DNA from: Pseudomonadota bacterium
GTDB lineage: Bacteria; Pseudomonadota; Gammaproteobacteria; Burkholderiales; JABEVD01
Direction: 5' to 3'
NCBI GenBank assembly: GCA_021848825.1
Contig: JAJZTQ010000002.1
Span: 69,129-133,128, forward strand
Length of the DNA stretch: 64,000 nucleotides
The notes under the pieces were generated by a model. The model worked only from the letters and a program-made list of their open reading frames with translations. It was not told where the DNA came from and searched no databases. Below are positions 48,323 to 54,613 of the stretch, piece after piece. Both the position numbers and the translations under genes were made by a program. The first letter of the stretch is position 1, and each line of letters opens with the position of its first letter.

Positions 48323-49165
48323 CTAGGTCAGCAAGTCGGCGAGCAGCATGATCTGCTCCCGCTGCATTTCCAGCGTTTCCCTCGCCTGCCCGAGCTGTTC
48401 AGCCGTGATGCCGGTCGCTTCGATCTCATCGCCTGATACCTGCAGGGGAGCATTCATCCTGATCGCTCCTTCTCCCGTGATCGATTCAGCGATCCTTGCG
48501 AGCATCAGCGTCATGTTTTTCAAATCGACTCCATGATGGCCTTCGATCACGCCGATCACTTCTTCGGGAAGATTCCATGACCTCGCGAGTATCCCGCCTA
48601 TTTCGGCATGATTGACGCCGAATTCTGCATCTTCCGCTTCAGGCACGGATTCGACAGGGTTCGATTCCATCCTGGAGAGGAAGGCATCGAATTTTTCGGG
48701 GGCGAGATGGGCGAGAACGAGATAGCCGAGATCGTGAAGCAGGCCTGAAAGGAACAGCATTTCCTCCGAAGGTCTCAATTCAGGGGGAAGCATGGCGGCG
48801 AGGGTGCGCATGCCTGTGGCCATCGAAAAGCTGTGCAGCCAGAGCTCCCTCGGACTGAAGATGCGGCTTTCCCTGACCCTTATCGGACCCAGCAATGCGA
48901 TCGCTATGGCGATCGATTTCACCCTGGAAAGGCCGAGGACGAGCGATGCGTCGGCTACCGTGCAGACCTTTCTGTTCGGGGAGAAAAAAGGGGAATTGGC
49001 CATGCCGATGACCCTTGCCGCGATGAAAGGGTCTGACTCGATGAGGCCGAGAAGGTCGCGCTCCCCCTTTTCGGTATCGAGAGGAAGGGATAGCAGCTGT
49101 TCGGCAATGCTGGAAATGGTGGGAAGGGCATCCGTTTCGAGGACCTTGGCGCGCAAGTCAGTCAT
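48323..49165 (-). CDS. HDOD-domain signalling protein
   Basis: The protein has 280 residues. The HDOD fold covers about residues 15-225 (LETDALPTISSIAEQLLSLPLD, FLSGLLHDLGYLVLAHLAP). HDOD proteins resemble HD hydrolases but usually lack activity and act as regulatory scaffolds. ATG 49165 has a GGGAGAG ribosome site; an extension to 49243 runs through a large palindrome and is unlikely. It is downstream of the MXKDX-repeat gene. Confidence 0.87.
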   Translation of the reverse strand: MTDLRAKVLETDALPTISSIAEQLLSLPLDTEKGERDLLGLIESDPFIAARVIGMANSPFFSPNRKVCTVADASLVLGLSRVKSIAIAIALLGPIRVRESRIFSPRELWLHSFSMATGMRTLAAMLPPELRPSEEMLFLSGLLHDLGYLVLAHLAPEKFDAFLSRMESNPVESVPEAEDAEFGVNHAEIGGILARSWNLPEEVIGVIEGHHGVDLKNMTLMLARIAESITGEGAIRMNAPLQVSGDEIEATGITAEQLGQARETLEMQREQIMLLADLLT

Positions 49166-49210
49166 CTTCTCTCCCGTGTTTTCGATCAAGGGAGATTCTA
49201 CCGCGGATTG

Positions 49211-49234
49211 ATGCGGGAAGCATGCTTCCCGCAT
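49211..49234. repeat. Perfect 24-base palindrome after the MXKDX gene
   Basis: ATGCGGGAAGCA at 49211-49222 is followed at once by its exact reverse complement. It starts 5 bases past the stop of the MXKDX gene. As RNA it gives a 10-bp stem with a CATG loop. No T run follows, so it is more an mRNA-end or protein-binding element than a classical terminator. Confidence 0.65.
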
Positions 49235-49239
49235 GCCCA

Positions 49240-49494
49240 TCACATGCCCTTCATCCCGTCATTCCCCTTCATCATGCCGTCATCCTTCTTCATGGCATCA
49301 TCCTTTTTCATCGCATCCTTCTTCATGGCGTGCTTTTTCTTGTGCGACATCTTCATGCTGTTCGAGGAACTCGTCATTTTCCCGCTGTCTTCCTTCATCT
49401 TTGCCCCTTCATCCATCTTCATCGAATCAGCCGCGAAAGACTGGGTGCCTGCGAGAAGCAGGAACAGGGAAGTTGCAGTCAAAATTTTCTTCAT
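49240..49494 (-). CDS. Pentapeptide MXKDX-repeat small exported protein
   Basis: An 84-residue protein. A signal peptide ends near QSFAADS. The mature part is almost only Met, Lys, Asp, Gly and Ser, with repeats MKKDA, MKKDD and MKKDD, as in the MXKDX family. The function is unknown in the literature I can recall. The methionine-rich, periplasmic character suggests metal (copper) binding or an oxidant sink, and it sits beside a periplasmic methionine sulfoxide reductase. Ribosome site AAGGAG. Confidence 0.85.
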   Translation of the reverse strand: MKKILTATSLFLLLAGTQSFAADSMKMDEGAKMKEDSGKMTSSSNSMKMSHKKKHAMKKDAMKKDDAMKKDDGMMKGNDGMKGM

Positions 49495-49510
49495 CGTTTT
49501 CTCCTTGGTT

Positions 49511-49549
49511 GAAAATCGGCCTCGGCCGCTCTTCGGGGGAATCCCCGAA
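49511..49549 (-). terminator. Candidate terminator after msrA
   Basis: On the minus strand two hairpins follow the msrA stop. The first is TTCGGGG/CCCCGAA with a 4-base loop (49532-49549). The second is CGGCC-GA-GGCCG (49517-49528), followed by ATTTTC. Together they probably end the dipZ-msrA transcript before the MXKDX gene. Confidence 0.55.
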
Positions 49550-49559
49550 TCTTTTGCCT

Positions 49560-50201
49560 TCAGTAAGGCGAAGGGGTGCTCGTATACAGCCCCGGATAGT
49601 CTCTTTTCAGATGCGAAATCTTCGGAAGATCGTTGATCACGATATAGGGGTAATAGGGATGCAGCGTCTCGAAATTCTGGTGATAATCTTCAGCGGGATA
49701 GAAGGCCGGAAGGAGGCTCACTTTCGTCGCGATTTTTCCATGGAAGACCTTCGCGCGCTCGAGCTGGGCGATATAGGACTCGGCAGTCTTTTTCTGCATT
49801 TCATCGGTCGCGAAGATCTCCGAACGATACTGAGGTCCCTCGTCCGGTCCCTGCCTGTCGATTTCCGTGGGGTCATGGGCAATGGAGAAGAAGATCTCGA
49901 GCAGTTTCCCGTAGGAAATGTGTGAGGCGTCGTAGACGATTTTCACGGATTCGGCATGCCCGGTATTGCCCGCGCTGACGGCGCGATAATTCGCGTTTGC
50001 TGCGGCGCCTCCGGCATAGCCCGCTGTTGCCGAGACGACGCCTTTGACGTGCTGGAAAGTGCCCTGCATCGCCCAGAAGCAGCCCCCGGCGAGAACGGCC
50101 ACATGATTTCCGGATTCCGGCGGATCGAAGGCAGGGGAGGGAATCCGGGCGAAAGCACGGCCTGAAAGAGCGAGCAGGGCTGCGAACAGAAATTTTTTCA
50201 T
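49560..50201 (-). CDS. msrA: Peptide-methionine (S)-S-oxide reductase, exported form
   Basis: A 213-residue protein with a signal peptide (residues 1-18), so it acts in the periplasm, unlike most MsrA. The catalytic cysteine is in the family motif GGCFWAMQGTFQHVKGV. Other conserved blocks are AVSAGNTGHAESVKIVYD and ESYIAQLERAKVF. It repairs oxidised methionines and needs reducing power, which the adjacent DipZ could bring across the membrane. It overlaps the HD-GYP gene by 4 bases (ATGA) and has a strong AGGAGAAG ribosome site. Confidence 0.95.
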   Translation of the reverse strand: MKKFLFAALLALSGRAFARIPSPAFDPPESGNHVAVLAGGCFWAMQGTFQHVKGVVSATAGYAGGAAANANYRAVSAGNTGHAESVKIVYDASHISYGKLLEIFFSIAHDPTEIDRQGPDEGPQYRSEIFATDEMQKKTAESYIAQLERAKVFHGKIATKVSLLPAFYPAEDYHQNFETLHPYYPYIVINDLPKISHLKRDYPGLYTSTPSPY

Positions 50202-51085
50202 GCGCTTCTCCTGAAAGGGAAGATTCGTGAAATCCCGCTTTTTTTCCTCACGACGAGCGCTGCCGTTTCCCTGACCAGCGACTCGATCAGGTCGATATCC
50301 GCCTCGGGCTGGAGCGCTGCAGCATCGCCCTGTTTTCCGGTCATGCTGATGTCGAATTTTCCGTTCTCGAACGTCACTGCCGCTTCCGCGCCGCAGCGCC
50401 TGCAATAGACCCGGTCGCCTGATCTGTTCTTCCTTCTCACGACGATGGTGGGCCCGCACATCGGGCATTCCTGGACAGGGATGCCGGGCTCGCTGTATCC
50501 GGCTATTGGCGAAAGATGCCCCCGCCTGCCGATGGCGATGAATTTTCTCCCGAAATCGGCGTCGAACTGCTTCCCCAGGTTCTGTTCCAGGATGGAAAGC
50601 GCATTTTCGACAGGCATGCCGCGCCTGTAGGGGCGGTTGCTCGTCATGGCGTCGAATGCGTCGCACAGGCCCACTATCCTGGCGTCTATCGGGATATCGT
50701 CGCCGCGAAGCCCGAGCGGATAGCCGCGTCCGTCCGGGGTTTCGTGATGGGCATGGACTGCGGCGCTCGCGAGTTCCGCCAGAGGATGCTCGGACAGCAG
50801 TCTTTTGCCGACTTCGGGATGGGTCTTGATCACCGCATATTCCGCTTCAGTGAGCCTTTCAGGCTTGTTCAGGATCGCGTCGGGTATGCTTATCTTGCCG
50901 AGATCGTGAAGGAATCCACCCAGCGCGATCCTTGCGACGTCTTTTTCGGGGAGGCCGCATTCCGCCGCGAGGATCTTGCAGTATTGAGATACCCGCCAGA
51001 GATGCCCCCCGGTGTAGGGGTCCCTTGCTTCGACGAGCAAAGCCATGACATAAAGGCTTTTCAACAGTTCTTCTACAGGGTTCAT
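50198..51085 (-). CDS. HD-GYP protein with a C-terminal zinc ribbon
   Basis: The protein has 295 residues. A full HD-GYP domain is present (LVEARDPYTGGHLWRVSQY, GGFLHDLGKISIPDAIL, HHETPDGRGYPLGL, ARIVGLCDAFDAMTSNRPYR) without an N-terminal sensor. Residues about 205-240 carry two CxxC pairs (CPMCGP and YCRRCGA), a probable zinc ribbon. It is a likely c-di-GMP phosphodiesterase. It lies between dipZ and msrA in one operon, so its output may depend on redox stress through the zinc-binding cysteines (inference). Confidence 0.88.
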   Translation of the reverse strand: MNPVEELLKSLYVMALLVEARDPYTGGHLWRVSQYCKILAAECGLPEKDVARIALGGFLHDLGKISIPDAILNKPERLTEAEYAVIKTHPEVGKRLLSEHPLAELASAAVHAHHETPDGRGYPLGLRGDDIPIDARIVGLCDAFDAMTSNRPYRRGMPVENALSILEQNLGKQFDADFGRKFIAIGRRGHLSPIAGYSEPGIPVQECPMCGPTIVVRRKNRSGDRVYCRRCGAEAAVTFENGKFDISMTGKQGDAAALQPEADIDLIESLVRETAALVVRKKSGISRIFPFRRSA

Positions 51086-51100
51086 GTTTTTTCCTTGTGG

Positions 51101-52753
51101 TCAGCCGAAAGTGAAGGCGTAAGCCTCGAGCCCGGGGGTCTCGGACCTGATTTCTATCATCCCTTCCCCGGGTTTTTTCTGGTCTATGAGTTCATAGAGC
51201 GTATTCCTTGAAATGTCGACATGTCCTGAAGGGGCGTCTTTTCCTGCATCGCTTCCTGCGGGTTTGCCGTTCAGTCTGATTTGTGCATGGATCGGCTTGC
51301 CGCTCTCGGTGCCCAGCACGAGGAAAACGCGGCTCGCCTTGAAATGGAGCAGGATGGATGCGCCCTTCGCGCGGGAAACGATCTTTTCGGATTCGATTTT
51401 CCATTTACCTGAAAGCGCCCAGGAATCGACAGGAAGGGATTCCGGGTAGCGATAGTCCGAGACGGCATCCCTGACGGCCCTTCCGGAGAAACCCGCAGCC
51501 CTCTGGTAGCCCAGATAGGTTTCAGGAGTTTCGTCAGGCGCAGGGTGGGCTTCTGCATAGGAAATGTTCGCCCGTCCGAGCCCGAGGAGATAGCGGATGT
51601 TGTTCTCCGTCACGTCGTAGTCGCCTTCCCCGAAGTGGGTGTAGACGACGCGCCCGTCCCTGTCTATCAGGTAATGCGCAGGCCAGTATTCGTTGTCGAA
51701 ATTTCCCCAGGTGGCGAGATCGTTGTCGAGCGCAACGGGATAATGGATGCCGTATTTCACCAATGCCGCCCTGACGTTGTCGATCCTCTTCTCGAATTCG
51801 AATTCGGGGGAATGGACGCCTATGATCACCAGTCCGTCCTTCCTGTATTTCTGGTCCCACGAGGTGATGTAGGGAAGGGTCCTGACGCAGTTGATGCACG
51901 AATAGGTCCAGAAATCGACGAGAACGACCTTTCCTCTCAATTCCTTCATGGAAAGGGGGGGGGAATTGAGCCATGCGCTTATCCCTGAAAAATCCGGCGC
52001 CGGATAGGGATGGGCAAGCGCATCTTCGAGCGAATTCGCACTCGTCTTCAACGGGCTGGAAGGATTCAATGTCTTTGCAGCCGGCGTTGAAGGGCCGAAA
52101 ATCGACTGGATATCGAACCCCGAACCGATGAACGCGACCGAGGCGACGATGATCAAGGCGAAAGCCTTCCTCACCGAATCGAGATGATTGACGAGCCAGC
52201 CGGTCTTCTTGAGGATGCTTCTTCCCGCGAGCGAGATGATGAGCATCGGGATGCCGGCGCCGATTGCGAAGGAAAAGATGATGAGATAGCCTTGCAGATC
52301 CGTCTTCTGCCTGATCACTTCGACGAGGACGGCTGCGAGTATGGGACCTGCGCAGGGGGTCCAGACCAGCCCTATGAGGGAACCTATTACGATTCCGCTG
52401 ACGAACCCTCCTGCCGAATGCTGCGCGATCCTGTTTCCGAGATCGGCAGCGCTGCTCGTCAGTCTGCCGAATTTCTCGGAAAGCGTCGTCGAGAAGAGCA
52501 CGATTGCGAAAGAAAGAAGCAGAAAGAGCGATGCATTCCTGACGATGTCCAGATCGAGCCCGAGCAAGGCGACGAGCTTCCTGGACAACAGGGCGAAAAG
52601 GCTGAAAGAAACCACGAAGCCCAGGATGATGCCGAAAGGCCTTTTTCTTCCGCCATCGATCGATGTCGAAAGCACGATGGGAAGAACGGGGAGGATGCAG
52701 GGAGAGGCGATCAGCGCCAGTCCTTCCAGAAATGCCAAGCCTGTTTCTATCAT
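51101..52753 (-). CDS. DipZ-type thiol:disulfide transporter (CcdA-thioredoxin fusion)
   Basis: A 550-residue protein. Residues about 1-220 are a CcdA-like six-helix membrane domain with two cysteines in ASPCILPVLPIVLS and VWTPCAGPILAAV. Residues about 255-400 are a periplasmic TlpA-like redoxin with CxxC in TYSCINCVRTLPY. The last about 130 residues are a beta-rich domain typical of DipZ. It moves electrons from cytoplasmic thioredoxin to periplasmic targets, and here MsrA is an obvious candidate client. The ATG 52753 is about 47 bases downstream of an ECF-type promoter. Confidence 0.9.
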   Translation of the reverse strand: MIETGLAFLEGLALIASPCILPVLPIVLSTSIDGGRKRPFGIILGFVVSFSLFALLSRKLVALLGLDLDIVRNASLFLLLSFAIVLFSTTLSEKFGRLTSSAADLGNRIAQHSAGGFVSGIVIGSLIGLVWTPCAGPILAAVLVEVIRQKTDLQGYLIIFSFAIGAGIPMLIISLAGRSILKKTGWLVNHLDSVRKAFALIIVASVAFIGSGFDIQSIFGPSTPAAKTLNPSSPLKTSANSLEDALAHPYPAPDFSGISAWLNSPPLSMKELRGKVVLVDFWTYSCINCVRTLPYITSWDQKYRKDGLVIIGVHSPEFEFEKRIDNVRAALVKYGIHYPVALDNDLATWGNFDNEYWPAHYLIDRDGRVVYTHFGEGDYDVTENNIRYLLGLGRANISYAEAHPAPDETPETYLGYQRAAGFSGRAVRDAVSDYRYPESLPVDSWALSGKWKIESEKIVSRAKGASILLHFKASRVFLVLGTESGKPIHAQIRLNGKPAGSDAGKDAPSGHVDISRNTLYELIDQKKPGEGMIEIRSETPGLEAYAFTFG

Positions 52754-52806
52754 GTTATGCCTTTCGAAATATACTGTTCTGGTAAGATGAAGCCTTCATG
52801 CCCTGA

Positions 52807-52833
52807 TTCGGGCAAAACTCGAAAATGGTTACA
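52807..52833 (-). promoter_or_regulatory. ECF sigma-F-type promoter facing the dipZ operon
   Basis: On the minus strand TGTAACC (52833-52827) is followed by 16 bases and CGAA (52810-52807). This equals the -35/-10 pattern that I recall for Caulobacter sigma-F, whose anti-sigma is NrsF. A sigma/NrsF-type pair is encoded divergently beside it. The expected start is near 52800. Confidence 0.72.
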
Positions 52834-52841
52834 TCATCTCG

Positions 52842-53375
52842 ATGAAGGAAGCAGATCTCGAATCACTGATGGGGAAAGCGCTGGAAGGGGACAGGCAGTC
52901 CTATGCGGAACTCCTCAGGGAAACGACGCGTTTTCTGAAGCCCTATCTTTCGCTGCGCCTGAGGGAAGAGCACGAGGTCGACGACGTGCTTCAGGAAATC
53001 CTGCTATCCATCCACAAGGCAAGACATACCTACGACGGAAACCGCCCCTACAAGCCCTGGGCCTATGCGATTGCGAAATTCCGGCTTCAGGATCATTTCA
53101 GGTTCCATTACGGCGATTACCTCCGTCAGGCGGTGGAACTCTCTGAAATTGAAGAAAGTCTTGCAGAACCCGTAACCGAAAATGCCTTCAGTTACGAATC
53201 TATAAGGGGAGAGATAGAAAGACTCCCGGAAAAGCAGGCTGTGATATTGACGCTGATTCACAGGGAAGGCTGCACGGCCAGGGAAGTCGCGGAAAGAATG
53301 GGCATGAAGGAGTCTGCAGTGAAGGTGGCGGCGCATCGCGCTTACAAACTATTGAGGAAGAAACTGGAAGAATGA
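52842..53375 (+). CDS. ECF-family RNA polymerase sigma factor (sigma-F/EcfF type)
   Basis: A 177-residue sigma factor. Region 2 (EEHEVDDVLQEILLSIHKARHTYDG) and region 4 (LPEKQAVILTLIHREGCTAREVAERMGMKESAVKVAAHRAY) are complete. The stop overlaps the next gene, which encodes an NrsF-like anti-sigma factor, so this is a sigma/anti-sigma pair. In Caulobacter, related sigma-F answers to metal and oxidative stress. The likely regulon here is the divergent dipZ-msrA operon. Confidence 0.93.
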   Translation: MKEADLESLMGKALEGDRQSYAELLRETTRFLKPYLSLRLREEHEVDDVLQEILLSIHKARHTYDGNRPYKPWAYAIAKFRLQDHFRFHYGDYLRQAVELSEIEESLAEPVTENAFSYESIRGEIERLPEKQAVILTLIHREGCTAREVAERMGMKESAVKVAAHRAYKLLRKKLEE

Positions 53376-54010
53376 TGGAAAGCATCGAGGATCTCATCGA
53401 GTCTCTCGCCGGGGACGCAGAACCAGTCAGGCCCGCCCGGAATCCATTCCTGACATGGCTGAAATGGACCGGCATGGCGGCAGCCTATGTCTTCTTCGCG
53501 CTGCTGATTTCTGGGCATCGAAACGATCTTGCAGAAAGGCTTCATTCGCCGATCTTCATTGCGGAAATGGCTTCCCTCGTCTTCATGGTCTGCAGCGCCG
53601 CCCTGAGCGCATCGCTTCTTTCCTTCCCGGATCTCTACCAGAGGGGCAGAATCGTCTATCTGCCGCTCCTTTCGGCCGCATGTTTCGCGGTCGTCATGAT
53701 GGTTGCGTGGCGCTTGGACAATCCGCCTTCCCCCCTTCCCGTTCACAGCTATCAGTGCACGCTCTCCATTGCGCTTCTTTCCCTTCTGCCTATGTTCTCG
53801 ATATTCCGTTCGCTGAGAAAGAATGCGAGCACCCATGCCGGATGGGCCGGCGTGAATGCCGTGCTCTATGCATTCGGAACGGGCGCGATATGGCTGAGGC
53901 TTGAGGAAGCGACGAATTCGATCGCTCATGTGCTCGAATGGCATTATCTTCCGATGCTTCTCGTCGGCATCATCGGCCTCTGGCTCGGCAAGAAGCTGCT
54001 GAAGTGGTGA
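53372..54010 (+). CDS. NrsF/DUF1109-type anti-sigma factor
   Basis: A 212-residue inner-membrane protein with a short cytoplasmic N-terminus (residues 1-28, MMESIEDLIESLAGDAEPV) and six hydrophobic helices, the NrsF (DUF1109) pattern. Conserved cysteines believed to sense metals or oxidants are represented by single cysteines within the helices (MVCSAALSAS, SAACFAVVM). It should hold the upstream ECF sigma factor at the membrane until stress. The start overlaps the sigma gene stop by 4 bases. Confidence 0.88.
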   Translation: MMESIEDLIESLAGDAEPVRPARNPFLTWLKWTGMAAAYVFFALLISGHRNDLAERLHSPIFIAEMASLVFMVCSAALSASLLSFPDLYQRGRIVYLPLLSAACFAVVMMVAWRLDNPPSPLPVHSYQCTLSIALLSLLPMFSIFRSLRKNASTHAGWAGVNAVLYAFGTGAIWLRLEEATNSIAHVLEWHYLPMLLVGIIGLWLGKKLLKW

Positions 54011-54613
54011 TCAGTGGTTCCTCAGCATCGGTTGGAGATGCTTCCAGATGTTGGAGAGGACCTTGGCTTGCGCTTTTTCGGTCGGATGGAGACCATCAGA
54101 CTGGAAATCGTCCAGGTCCTGGGCGAAGCCTGCGAGCATGAAGGGAACGAATGCGAGCTTTTCTCTTCTTGCGATTTCAGGGTAGATTGCCTGGAAAGCT
54201 TCGGCATATTTCCGGCCGTAATTCGGGGGAAGGCGCATGCCCACCAGCAACACCCTTGCATTTTGTTTTTTGCAGGCTGATATGATCGATTCGAGATTCT
54301 TCCTGGCGATGGCGACAGGCTGCCCTCTCAGGCCGTCGTTTGCGCCGAGTTCGAGGATGACGATCTCGGGGTCGAACTCCTTCAGGGCGGGAACGATCCT
54401 CGAAAGCCCGCCGGAAGTGGTTTCCCCGCTGATGCTGGCGTTGACGACATGGTAACGCGTTCCATGCAGCTTCACGCCGAGCAGGTCGACCCAGTTTTTT
54501 CCGGCAGGAACGCCGTATCCGGCGGAGAGGCTGTCGCCGAAAACCAGGATGGTCGATGACAGGACAGTATGAGGAAGCAGCAGGGCGAAAACGAGGAATA
54601 TGGATCGAATCAT
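54011..54613 (-). CDS. tesA: Acyl-CoA thioesterase I / lysophospholipase L1 (SGNH hydrolase)
   Basis: A 200-residue periplasmic esterase with a signal peptide (residues 1-18). SGNH blocks: VFGDSLSAGYG (Ser nucleophile), ISGETTSGG, LELGANDGLRG and DGLHPTEKAQ (Asp/His). It is divergent from ybbA and their start codons overlap, as in E. coli where tesA and ybbAP are also divergent. Confidence 0.94.
   Translation of the reverse strand: MIRSIFLVFALLLPHTVLSSTILVFGDSLSAGYGVPAGKNWVDLLGVKLHGTRYHVVNASISGETTSGGLSRIVPALKEFDPEIVILELGANDGLRGQPVAIARKNLESIISACKKQNARVLLVGMRLPPNYGRKYAEAFQAIYPEIARREKLAFVPFMLAGFAQDLDDFQSDGLHPTEKAQAKVLSNIWKHLQPMLRNH

Follow-up and report, generated by a model that had tools for sequence, protein, structure and literature searches.

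A 64,000-nucleotide stretch of the genome of a Pseudomonadota bacterium of the order Burkholderiales (contig JAJZTQ010000002.1, positions 69,129 to 133,128; hereafter the window) carries a gene for an ECF16-like extracytoplasmic function (ECF) sigma factor, sigF, followed by that of an NrsF-family anti-sigma factor, nrsF. In the customary picture, an ECF sigma factor drives transcription of its own gene together with that of its anti-sigma factor. Comparison of this locus with its relatives points to an arrangement in which the sole recognisable sigma-F promoter of the regulator locus lies inside sigF, would drive nrsF alone and would shape the V-T...Y-E-S linker of the sigma factor; pure negative feedback would have replaced mixed autoregulation, and the sensing cysteine of NrsF would have been lost. 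On balance we favour this reading, which is drawn from sequence. With greater confidence, we consider it likely that the locus as a whole is an ECF16-type sigma-F/NrsF switch, with an intragenic nrsF promoter and negative-only feedback, that controls a set of methionine-repair proteins of the cell envelope.

A promoter-like site inside sigF

Of 300 genomes searched across the order, 49 have NrsF, over the cut-off in 44. The 46 neighbourhoods taken yielded a sigma factor in 42 (none from L054, L059, L080 or L081), each chosen as the best match at its locus rather than by individual inspection of its place beside NrsF. Together with the window's own, these sigma factors form two groups, 19 near that of the window (itself included; the clade) and 24 others (the sister group). 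Named genomes were then scanned with the clade NrsF alignment, so that selection was by NrsF and not by sigma factor, which gave at least 80 loci. The 80 listed contributed 63 new unique sigma factors, all near the window's, after removal of two loci without a sigma factor (L115 and L160), 13 copies of the first 19, and L105 and L106 as copies of L103. The clade set of 82 therefore comprises the first 19 and 63 among the named-genome matches listed, and its genome labels include Gallionella, Sideroxydans, Sulfuricella, Nitrotoga, Nitrosomonas, other betaproteobacteria and a few alphaproteobacteria. Sampling was widened to 369 genomes from the class and 398 from the phylum, which gave 32 loci, 28 with a sigma factor, of which 25 lie outside the clade. 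L172 and L173, which do not belong to the class, add two members to the clade and are not part of the 82, and L162 was taken as a copy of L094, with which it shares its internal and divergent sites. Among the nine same-genus genomes listed, the window's own included, NrsF exceeds the cut-off in three, is a weak fragment in one and is absent from five; the fragment (L081, G037:C23:13746-14057) has an internal TGA and is possibly a remnant.

Within sigF, a copy of the sigma-F motif reads towards nrsF. At up to one mismatch it is present in 18 of the first 19 clade loci, always with a spacer of 17 nucleotides (N17) and beginning some 330 nucleotides into the gene, and in 61 of the 63 further loci, 57 of them perfect. 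Perfect TGTAACC-N17-CGAA occurs in 72 of the 82 clade sigma genes, where 0.56 would be expected from each protein and its local codon usage, and after thinning to 41 sequences of less than 80% identity it persists in 34, against 0.30 expected. An autoregulatory site upstream of the sigma gene, in the sense orientation, is found in none of the 82 loci at up to one mismatch (0/19 and 0/63; eight of the 63 have one at two mismatches). At the same stringency, the sister group of the order has an upstream site in 21 of 24 loci and an internal one in none. L172 and L173 likewise possess the internal site and lack the upstream one. Outside the clade, L174 has an internal near-match (one mismatch, N16) and no upstream site. 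At the level of sequence, the aligned loci show that the clade as a whole possesses the internal site and lacks the upstream one.

The internal site is read in the protein as x-V-T-E...Y-E-S, and its codons are more uniform than these residues demand. Val111 is encoded by GTA in all 80 clade sigma factors that have valine there, and A stands at the wobble position in 81 of 82, against 11.1 expected, which is the strongest deviation of the 177 columns (p 3e-72). This p-value and the others given here assume independent sequences, an assumption that does not apply, so more weight belongs to the ranking of columns and to the thinned set. The wobble of codon 110 is T in 79 of 82, even though the residue varies between D, N, P, A, H and Y. 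As far as the alignment can tell, these patterns demonstrate a constraint on the DNA of the internal site beyond that on the protein. TCN codons at Ser120 were considered as additional evidence for a -10 element and rejected, another serine column being equally uniform. Strong wobble bias across the clade is also seen at codons 170, 172, 177, 123 and 78, of which 170-177 lie at the start of nrsF. The distance from the end of the CGAA element to nrsF is 174-178 nucleotides in 65 of 79 loci.

An unrooted tree of the sigma factors, computed without codons 105-123, which carry the trait itself, included 41 clade representatives and 24 other sequences. A branch with a Shimodaira-Hasegawa-like approximate likelihood ratio test (SH-aLRT) value of 100 sets apart the window's sigma factor and the 40 other clade representatives. 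The place of the promoter changes once on this tree when the rows without a site (L132, L039, L041 and L044) are left out, and four times when they are scored as a third state; L071, which has two mismatches, was scored as internal.

The anti-sigma factors of the clade are also set apart. In Bradyrhizobium OsrA, C179 is needed for release by peroxide and C129 probably for binding (PMC3420878), and Caulobacter NrsF has a conserved pair, C131 and C181 (PMC3511200). The clade proteins keep C129 alone of the two OsrA cysteines. Position 179 is glutamate in the window and across the 18 aligned clade NrsFs (18 of the first 19 loci; L062, whose open reading frame (ORF) start is over-extended, was left out), whereas it is cysteine in all 11 readable sister-group proteins (25 loci were offered and 15 frames obtained, from which four wrong frames, L009, L011, L014 and L025, were removed). 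H125, H155, H186 and H191 are invariant in the clade. By these features, the window's NrsF group is a divergent clade of the ECF16/NrsF family and not its classical form. The statement of the initial annotation that NrsF senses stress therefore does not hold as written, since the release cysteine of OsrA (PMC3420878) is replaced by glutamate; with this replacement, the trigger may not be the one to which the studied members respond.

Putative target promoters and the methionine-repair genes

The initial annotation, made from the letters of the window, had described an ECF sigma/NrsF pair with a matching promoter into a periplasmic redox-repair operon, a description that stands: Pfam matches bear out the positions of the sigma factor, NrsF, DipZ, HD-GYP/zinc-ribbon and exported MsrA genes (Table 1), the perfect TGTAACC-N16-CGAA between the sigma gene and dipZ is where it was said to be (TGTAACCATTTTCGAGTTTTGCCCGAA), and in relatives the same promoter type precedes MsrB, Met-rich peptide, MsrA and DipZ genes. 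The motif is the sole match in the window, where 0.04 would be expected and at least one match arises in 4 of 100 shuffles; transcription would be expected to start near 52800. The consensus at these targets, tGTAACc-N16-CGAA, is the one quoted in PMC3420878.

Table 1. Genes and promoter-like sites of the sigF locus, by position in the window
Feature	Position	Strand	Basis
ECF sigma factor, sigF/ECF16-like, 177 aa	52842-53375	+	Pfam Sigma70_r2 and r4_2
NrsF-family (DUF1109) anti-sigma factor, 212 aa	53372-54010	+	PF06532, E 2.6e-38, 132 bits
Proposed intragenic sigma-F-type promoter, (C)GTAACC-N17-CGAA, reading into nrsF	53171-53198	+	motif and clade comparison
Sigma-F-type promoter of dipZ operon, TGTAACC-N16-CGAA with T-run	52807-52833	-	motif match
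DipZ-type membrane thiol-electron carrier, 550 aa	51101-52753	-	DsbD_TM, Redoxin and Thioredoxin_10
HD-GYP protein with C-terminal CxxC...CxxC zinc ribbon, 295 aa	50198-51085	-	HD_5, E 3.2e-38
Exported MsrA, 213 aa	49560-50201	-	PMSR, E 2.9e-54; TIGR00401 above cut-off
Exported Met/Lys-rich peptide, MrpX/MXKDX-like, 84 aa	49240-49494	-	TIGR02953, E 3e-5, 23.9 bits (below cut-off of 41)

Beyond the window, the scan of the source genome (2.74 Mb, 99.7% complete) that the initial annotation had advised is informative in one form of the motif and not in another. The bare motif (N15-17) has four matches genome-wide and its backwards control also four, so its number alone is no proof of a regulon, was rejected as such, and counts against the regulatory reading. 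In three of the four matches, the -35 element is followed by a T-rich stretch, and the corresponding T-run motif (TGTAACCNTTT-N12-CGAA, up to one mismatch) discriminates, with three matches, two exact and one with a single mismatch, against none in the backwards control. The first precedes the dipZ operon; the second, on another contig, a signal-peptide MsrB (L002, 1568-2053; TIGR00357, 200 bits, cut-off 113); and the third an exported spondin-domain protein (L003, G000:C20:24789-25460; NF038123, 134 bits, cut-off 40). The fourth bare match (C8, N17, without a T-run) was taken as chance; it lies inside a 257-residue ORF (L001) that, named by eye, resembles a sugar-phosphate phosphatase. With msrB and the spondin-domain gene elsewhere under the same promoter, the self-contained circuit first proposed for the window is not self-contained.

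At the locus itself, the sigma factor (regions 2 and 4) is encoded directly 5' of the DUF1109/NrsF gene, the start of which overlaps the end of sigF by four bases. This is the only NrsF in the genome, and it scores 40 of 300 bits, below the cut-off, with the stricter NCBIfam NrsF model. No sigma-70 promoter for sigF was found in a scan of 49100-54100, where 2.1 would be expected by chance, which says little. DipZ combines a CcdA/DsbD membrane core with a thioredoxin-like domain bearing CINC and a C-terminal domain, as expected of a DipZ/DsbD-type reductant carrier with a periplasmic CxxC thioredoxin domain; its cysteines are Cys 19, 134, 286 and 289, and its thioredoxin part also shows similarity, below the cut-off, to the N-terminal region of MsrA/MsrB fusions (NF010625, E 1.3e-6). 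A link of the HD-GYP protein to cyclic di-GMP is only suggested, by the domain alone. MsrA has a signal peptide, judged by eye, and a single cysteine (C41).

The operon of dipZ, HD-GYP and msrA genes first described is upheld in its genes, and its extent appears one gene short: after msrA stands a signal-peptide ORF for a Met-rich peptide, with 13 methionines in its last 62 residues, which is the probable last gene of the operon. Gaps between the minus-strand genes are 15 (dipZ/HD-GYP), -4 (HD-GYP/msrA) and 65 bases (msrA/peptide), no promoter motif of the peptide gene's own was found in the window, and the scan of 49100-54100 revealed nothing resembling a terminator on the minus strand. A hairpin at 49532-49549 in the msrA-peptide gap, with a T-tail on the plus strand only, speaks against this extension and leaves co-transcription of the peptide gene uncertain. 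The genome holds two MsrA and two MsrB domains. No match to the MsrP-type reductase family (Oxidored_molyb) was found in it; the control search matched in 9 of 14 known genomes, including E. coli and Caulobacter.

Among relatives, clusters of Met-rich, MsrB, DipZ and MsrA genes recur divergent from sigF. The 82 clade loci (about 6-7 kb each, contig permitting) contain MsrB in 47, MsrA in 43, DipZ in 38 and a Met-rich ORF in 34, as well as a match to the HD-GYP query in seven (some being longer HD-GYP proteins) and spondin in five. They hold 99 T-run sites at up to one mismatch, and the first recognised gene after these is MsrB in 24 cases, Met-rich in 23, MsrA in 14, spondin in five and DipZ in three, with none recognised in 30. 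The order promoter, Met-rich peptide, MsrB, DipZ, MsrA is found in L150 and L161, the order MsrB-DipZ-HD-GYP-MsrA in L088, and a Met-rich ORF directly 3' of dipZ in both congeners examined (L072 and L076). Compared with this repair-gene set, the operon in the window seems rearranged, with msrB elsewhere. Gene content and promoter matches are demonstrated at the level of sequence.

Several other features of these neighbourhoods were observed. The same HD-GYP/zinc-ribbon protein stands beside DipZ in L041 (4929-8069), L044 (3197-6304), L066 (2447-5025), L088 (1852-4452) and the window (50198-52753), two of these being sister-group loci with a distant sigma factor, which suggests a link between DipZ and HD-GYP. 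The spondin-like gene is first after a T-run site in L069, L133, L134, L140 and L146. Small exported Cys-rich proteins follow T-run sites in L064, L063, L071, L094, L095, L120, L123, L153 and L154; they resemble DUF2282/bufferin-type peptides.

From these genes and sites, we infer promoter activity, a feedback effect, an electron path and a trigger as follows. Oxidant or metal stress would cause membrane-bound NrsF to free sigma-F, which would transcribe from TGTAACC(A/T)TTT-N12-CGAAT promoters. The exported Met-rich peptide, likely an oxidant sponge, would act as a sacrificial scavenger, exported MsrA and MsrB would repair methionine sulfoxide in the peptide and in envelope proteins, and DipZ would carry electrons across the inner membrane. 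Transcription from the internal site, about 175 nucleotides 5' of nrsF, would then supply more NrsF and shut the response down; with no upstream site and an internal site into nrsF, active sigma-F would raise its anti-sigma factor and not itself, which is negative-only feedback. The passage of electrons from DipZ to MsrA, as initially asserted, does not hold in that form: MsrA and MsrB have one cysteine each, hence no resolving cysteine, and DipZ would have to reduce them without one.

Alternatively, the operon might serve defence against metals (copper or chromate), with a Met-rich peptide that binds copper, rather than repair oxidised methionine. Caulobacter sigma-F is responsive to chromate and cadmium but unresponsive to peroxide (PMC3511200), and the peptide has a very weak match to a CopK model (E 0.08). 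The Cys-rich proteins after some relatives' T-run sites, with their presumed DUF2282/bufferin resemblance, would fit such a role too. However, two exported Msr enzymes and DipZ share this type of promoter, in the genome or in the clade, and we regard metal defence as rather unlikely.

Weighing the internal site

A number of observations weigh against an nrsF promoter inside sigF. In the window itself the first T of the motif is replaced by C, its only mismatch; elsewhere in the clade, no site is present in L132, and that of L071 deviates at two positions. The internal spacing is always N17, while the sister group's upstream sites (up to one mismatch) are N16 or N15, and the internal site lacks the T-run of the target promoters. 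The T, Y and E of the stretch are conserved as protein as well, and the wobble of codon 113, the first of the spacer, is biased too (78 of 82, against 44.3 expected). A conserved strong Shine-Dalgarno sequence for nrsF was sought and not found; one is present in just 17 of 81 loci, so an internal transcript may translate poorly. Finally, the 25 non-clade sigma genes of class and phylum have ten upstream sites and one internal site (L174) at up to one mismatch; the contrast is weaker in this wider sample, so that in its clean form it is limited to the sister group of the order and does not extend to every NrsF partner.

Some of these points would suit a site that binds sigma-F holoenzyme as a roadblock or decoy, braking elongation through sigF instead of initiating transcription of nrsF: the N17 spacing and missing T-run, unlike sister-group upstream and target sites, and the weak Shine-Dalgarno sequences of nrsF. 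Such a brake is nonetheless improbable, given that the site is oriented towards nrsF at a near-constant distance and that the upstream autoregulatory site is absent from the same clade.

About as improbable is a constraint on the protein, in which the linker V-T-x-Y-E-S-I matters to the sigma factor or to NrsF binding while codon choice and relatedness produce the DNA match as a side effect. In its favour, the residues T, Y, E, S and I hardly vary, wobble bias extends to spacer codon 113 and the five further columns named above, and some codons are simply inherited (Ser120 is TCN in 80 of 80, yet another serine column is so in 82 of 82). Against it, GTA makes up about 12% of valine codons in the first 19 loci and is used in 18 of the 18 with valine, codon 110 keeps its wobble while its residue changes, L121 and L127 change Y to F but keep TTCGAA, the spacer wobbles at codons 114-116 are little constrained in the first 19 (p 0.03-0.5), and thinning to 41 sequences still leaves p 1.8e-34.

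An intragenic promoter for nrsF, the reading we prefer, would, if true, show how a promoter can constrain a protein sequence. A clade with inhibitor-only induction would also provide a clear-cut natural comparison for asking what advantage each type of feedback brings.

Relation to known systems

Control of periplasmic methionine-sulfoxide repair by ECF16 sigma factors, together with a Met-rich peptide, has been described in Brucella (PMC8315932) and Azospira (PMC4623255). The sigF/nrsF-mrpX-yedYZ hypochlorite response of Azospira suillum shares with the window a SigF/NrsF pair, a periplasmic Met-rich peptide and a methionine-sulfoxide reductase (PMC4623255, PMC8315932); it differs in the enzymes, which are the molybdenum protein YedY/MsrP with YedZ in Azospira, and MsrA/MsrB with DipZ in the window. 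Exported msrA/msrB genes are carried by some perchlorate islands (PMC4623255). The intragenic site for nrsF would be a further difference from Azospira. In Brucella, BcrS/AbcS-bcrXQP likewise combines an ECF16 sigma factor and a DUF1109 anti-sigma factor with a divergent MXKDX Met-rich peptide operon and TGTAACC...CGAA sites, but the enzyme is MsrPQ, the site lies upstream of bcrS, as in the sister group, and the anti-sigma factor has both C129 and C179 (PMC8315932). EcfF/OsrA of Bradyrhizobium places a periplasmic methionine-sulfoxide reductase and DsbD-like/thioredoxin proteins under an ECF16 sigma factor, and its authors speculate on electron delivery linking Msr to the DsbD-like protein; its targets, however, are spread over several transcription units, the autoregulated promoter is upstream of ecfF, and OsrA has the C179 needed for release (PMC3420878). 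Since the genome shows no MsrP-type reductase, the window's system looks like a thiol-enzyme version of the SigF/NrsF-MrpX-MsrP hypochlorite response. Beside the better-studied MsrPQ version, the thiol-based cycle of Met-rich peptide, MsrA, MsrB and DipZ seems to be a frequent output among betaproteobacteria that oxidise iron, sulfur or nitrite.

The promoter P3 of rseA in E. coli lies inside rpoE. It is a second sigma-dependent (sigma-E) promoter for an anti-sigma gene, as proposed here for nrsF, with a start 228 nucleotides before rseA; the sigma/anti-sigma family is unrelated, and the promoter upstream of rpoE is also sigma-E-dependent, whereas the window's clade has no upstream site (PMC8595263). 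Across titles, opening lines of abstracts and passages of the open PMC literature, no report was found of an intragenic nrsF promoter in ECF16 systems or of a clade-wide move of the site into sigF. The operon is of a known kind, and the proposed relocated promoter would be a new variation on it.

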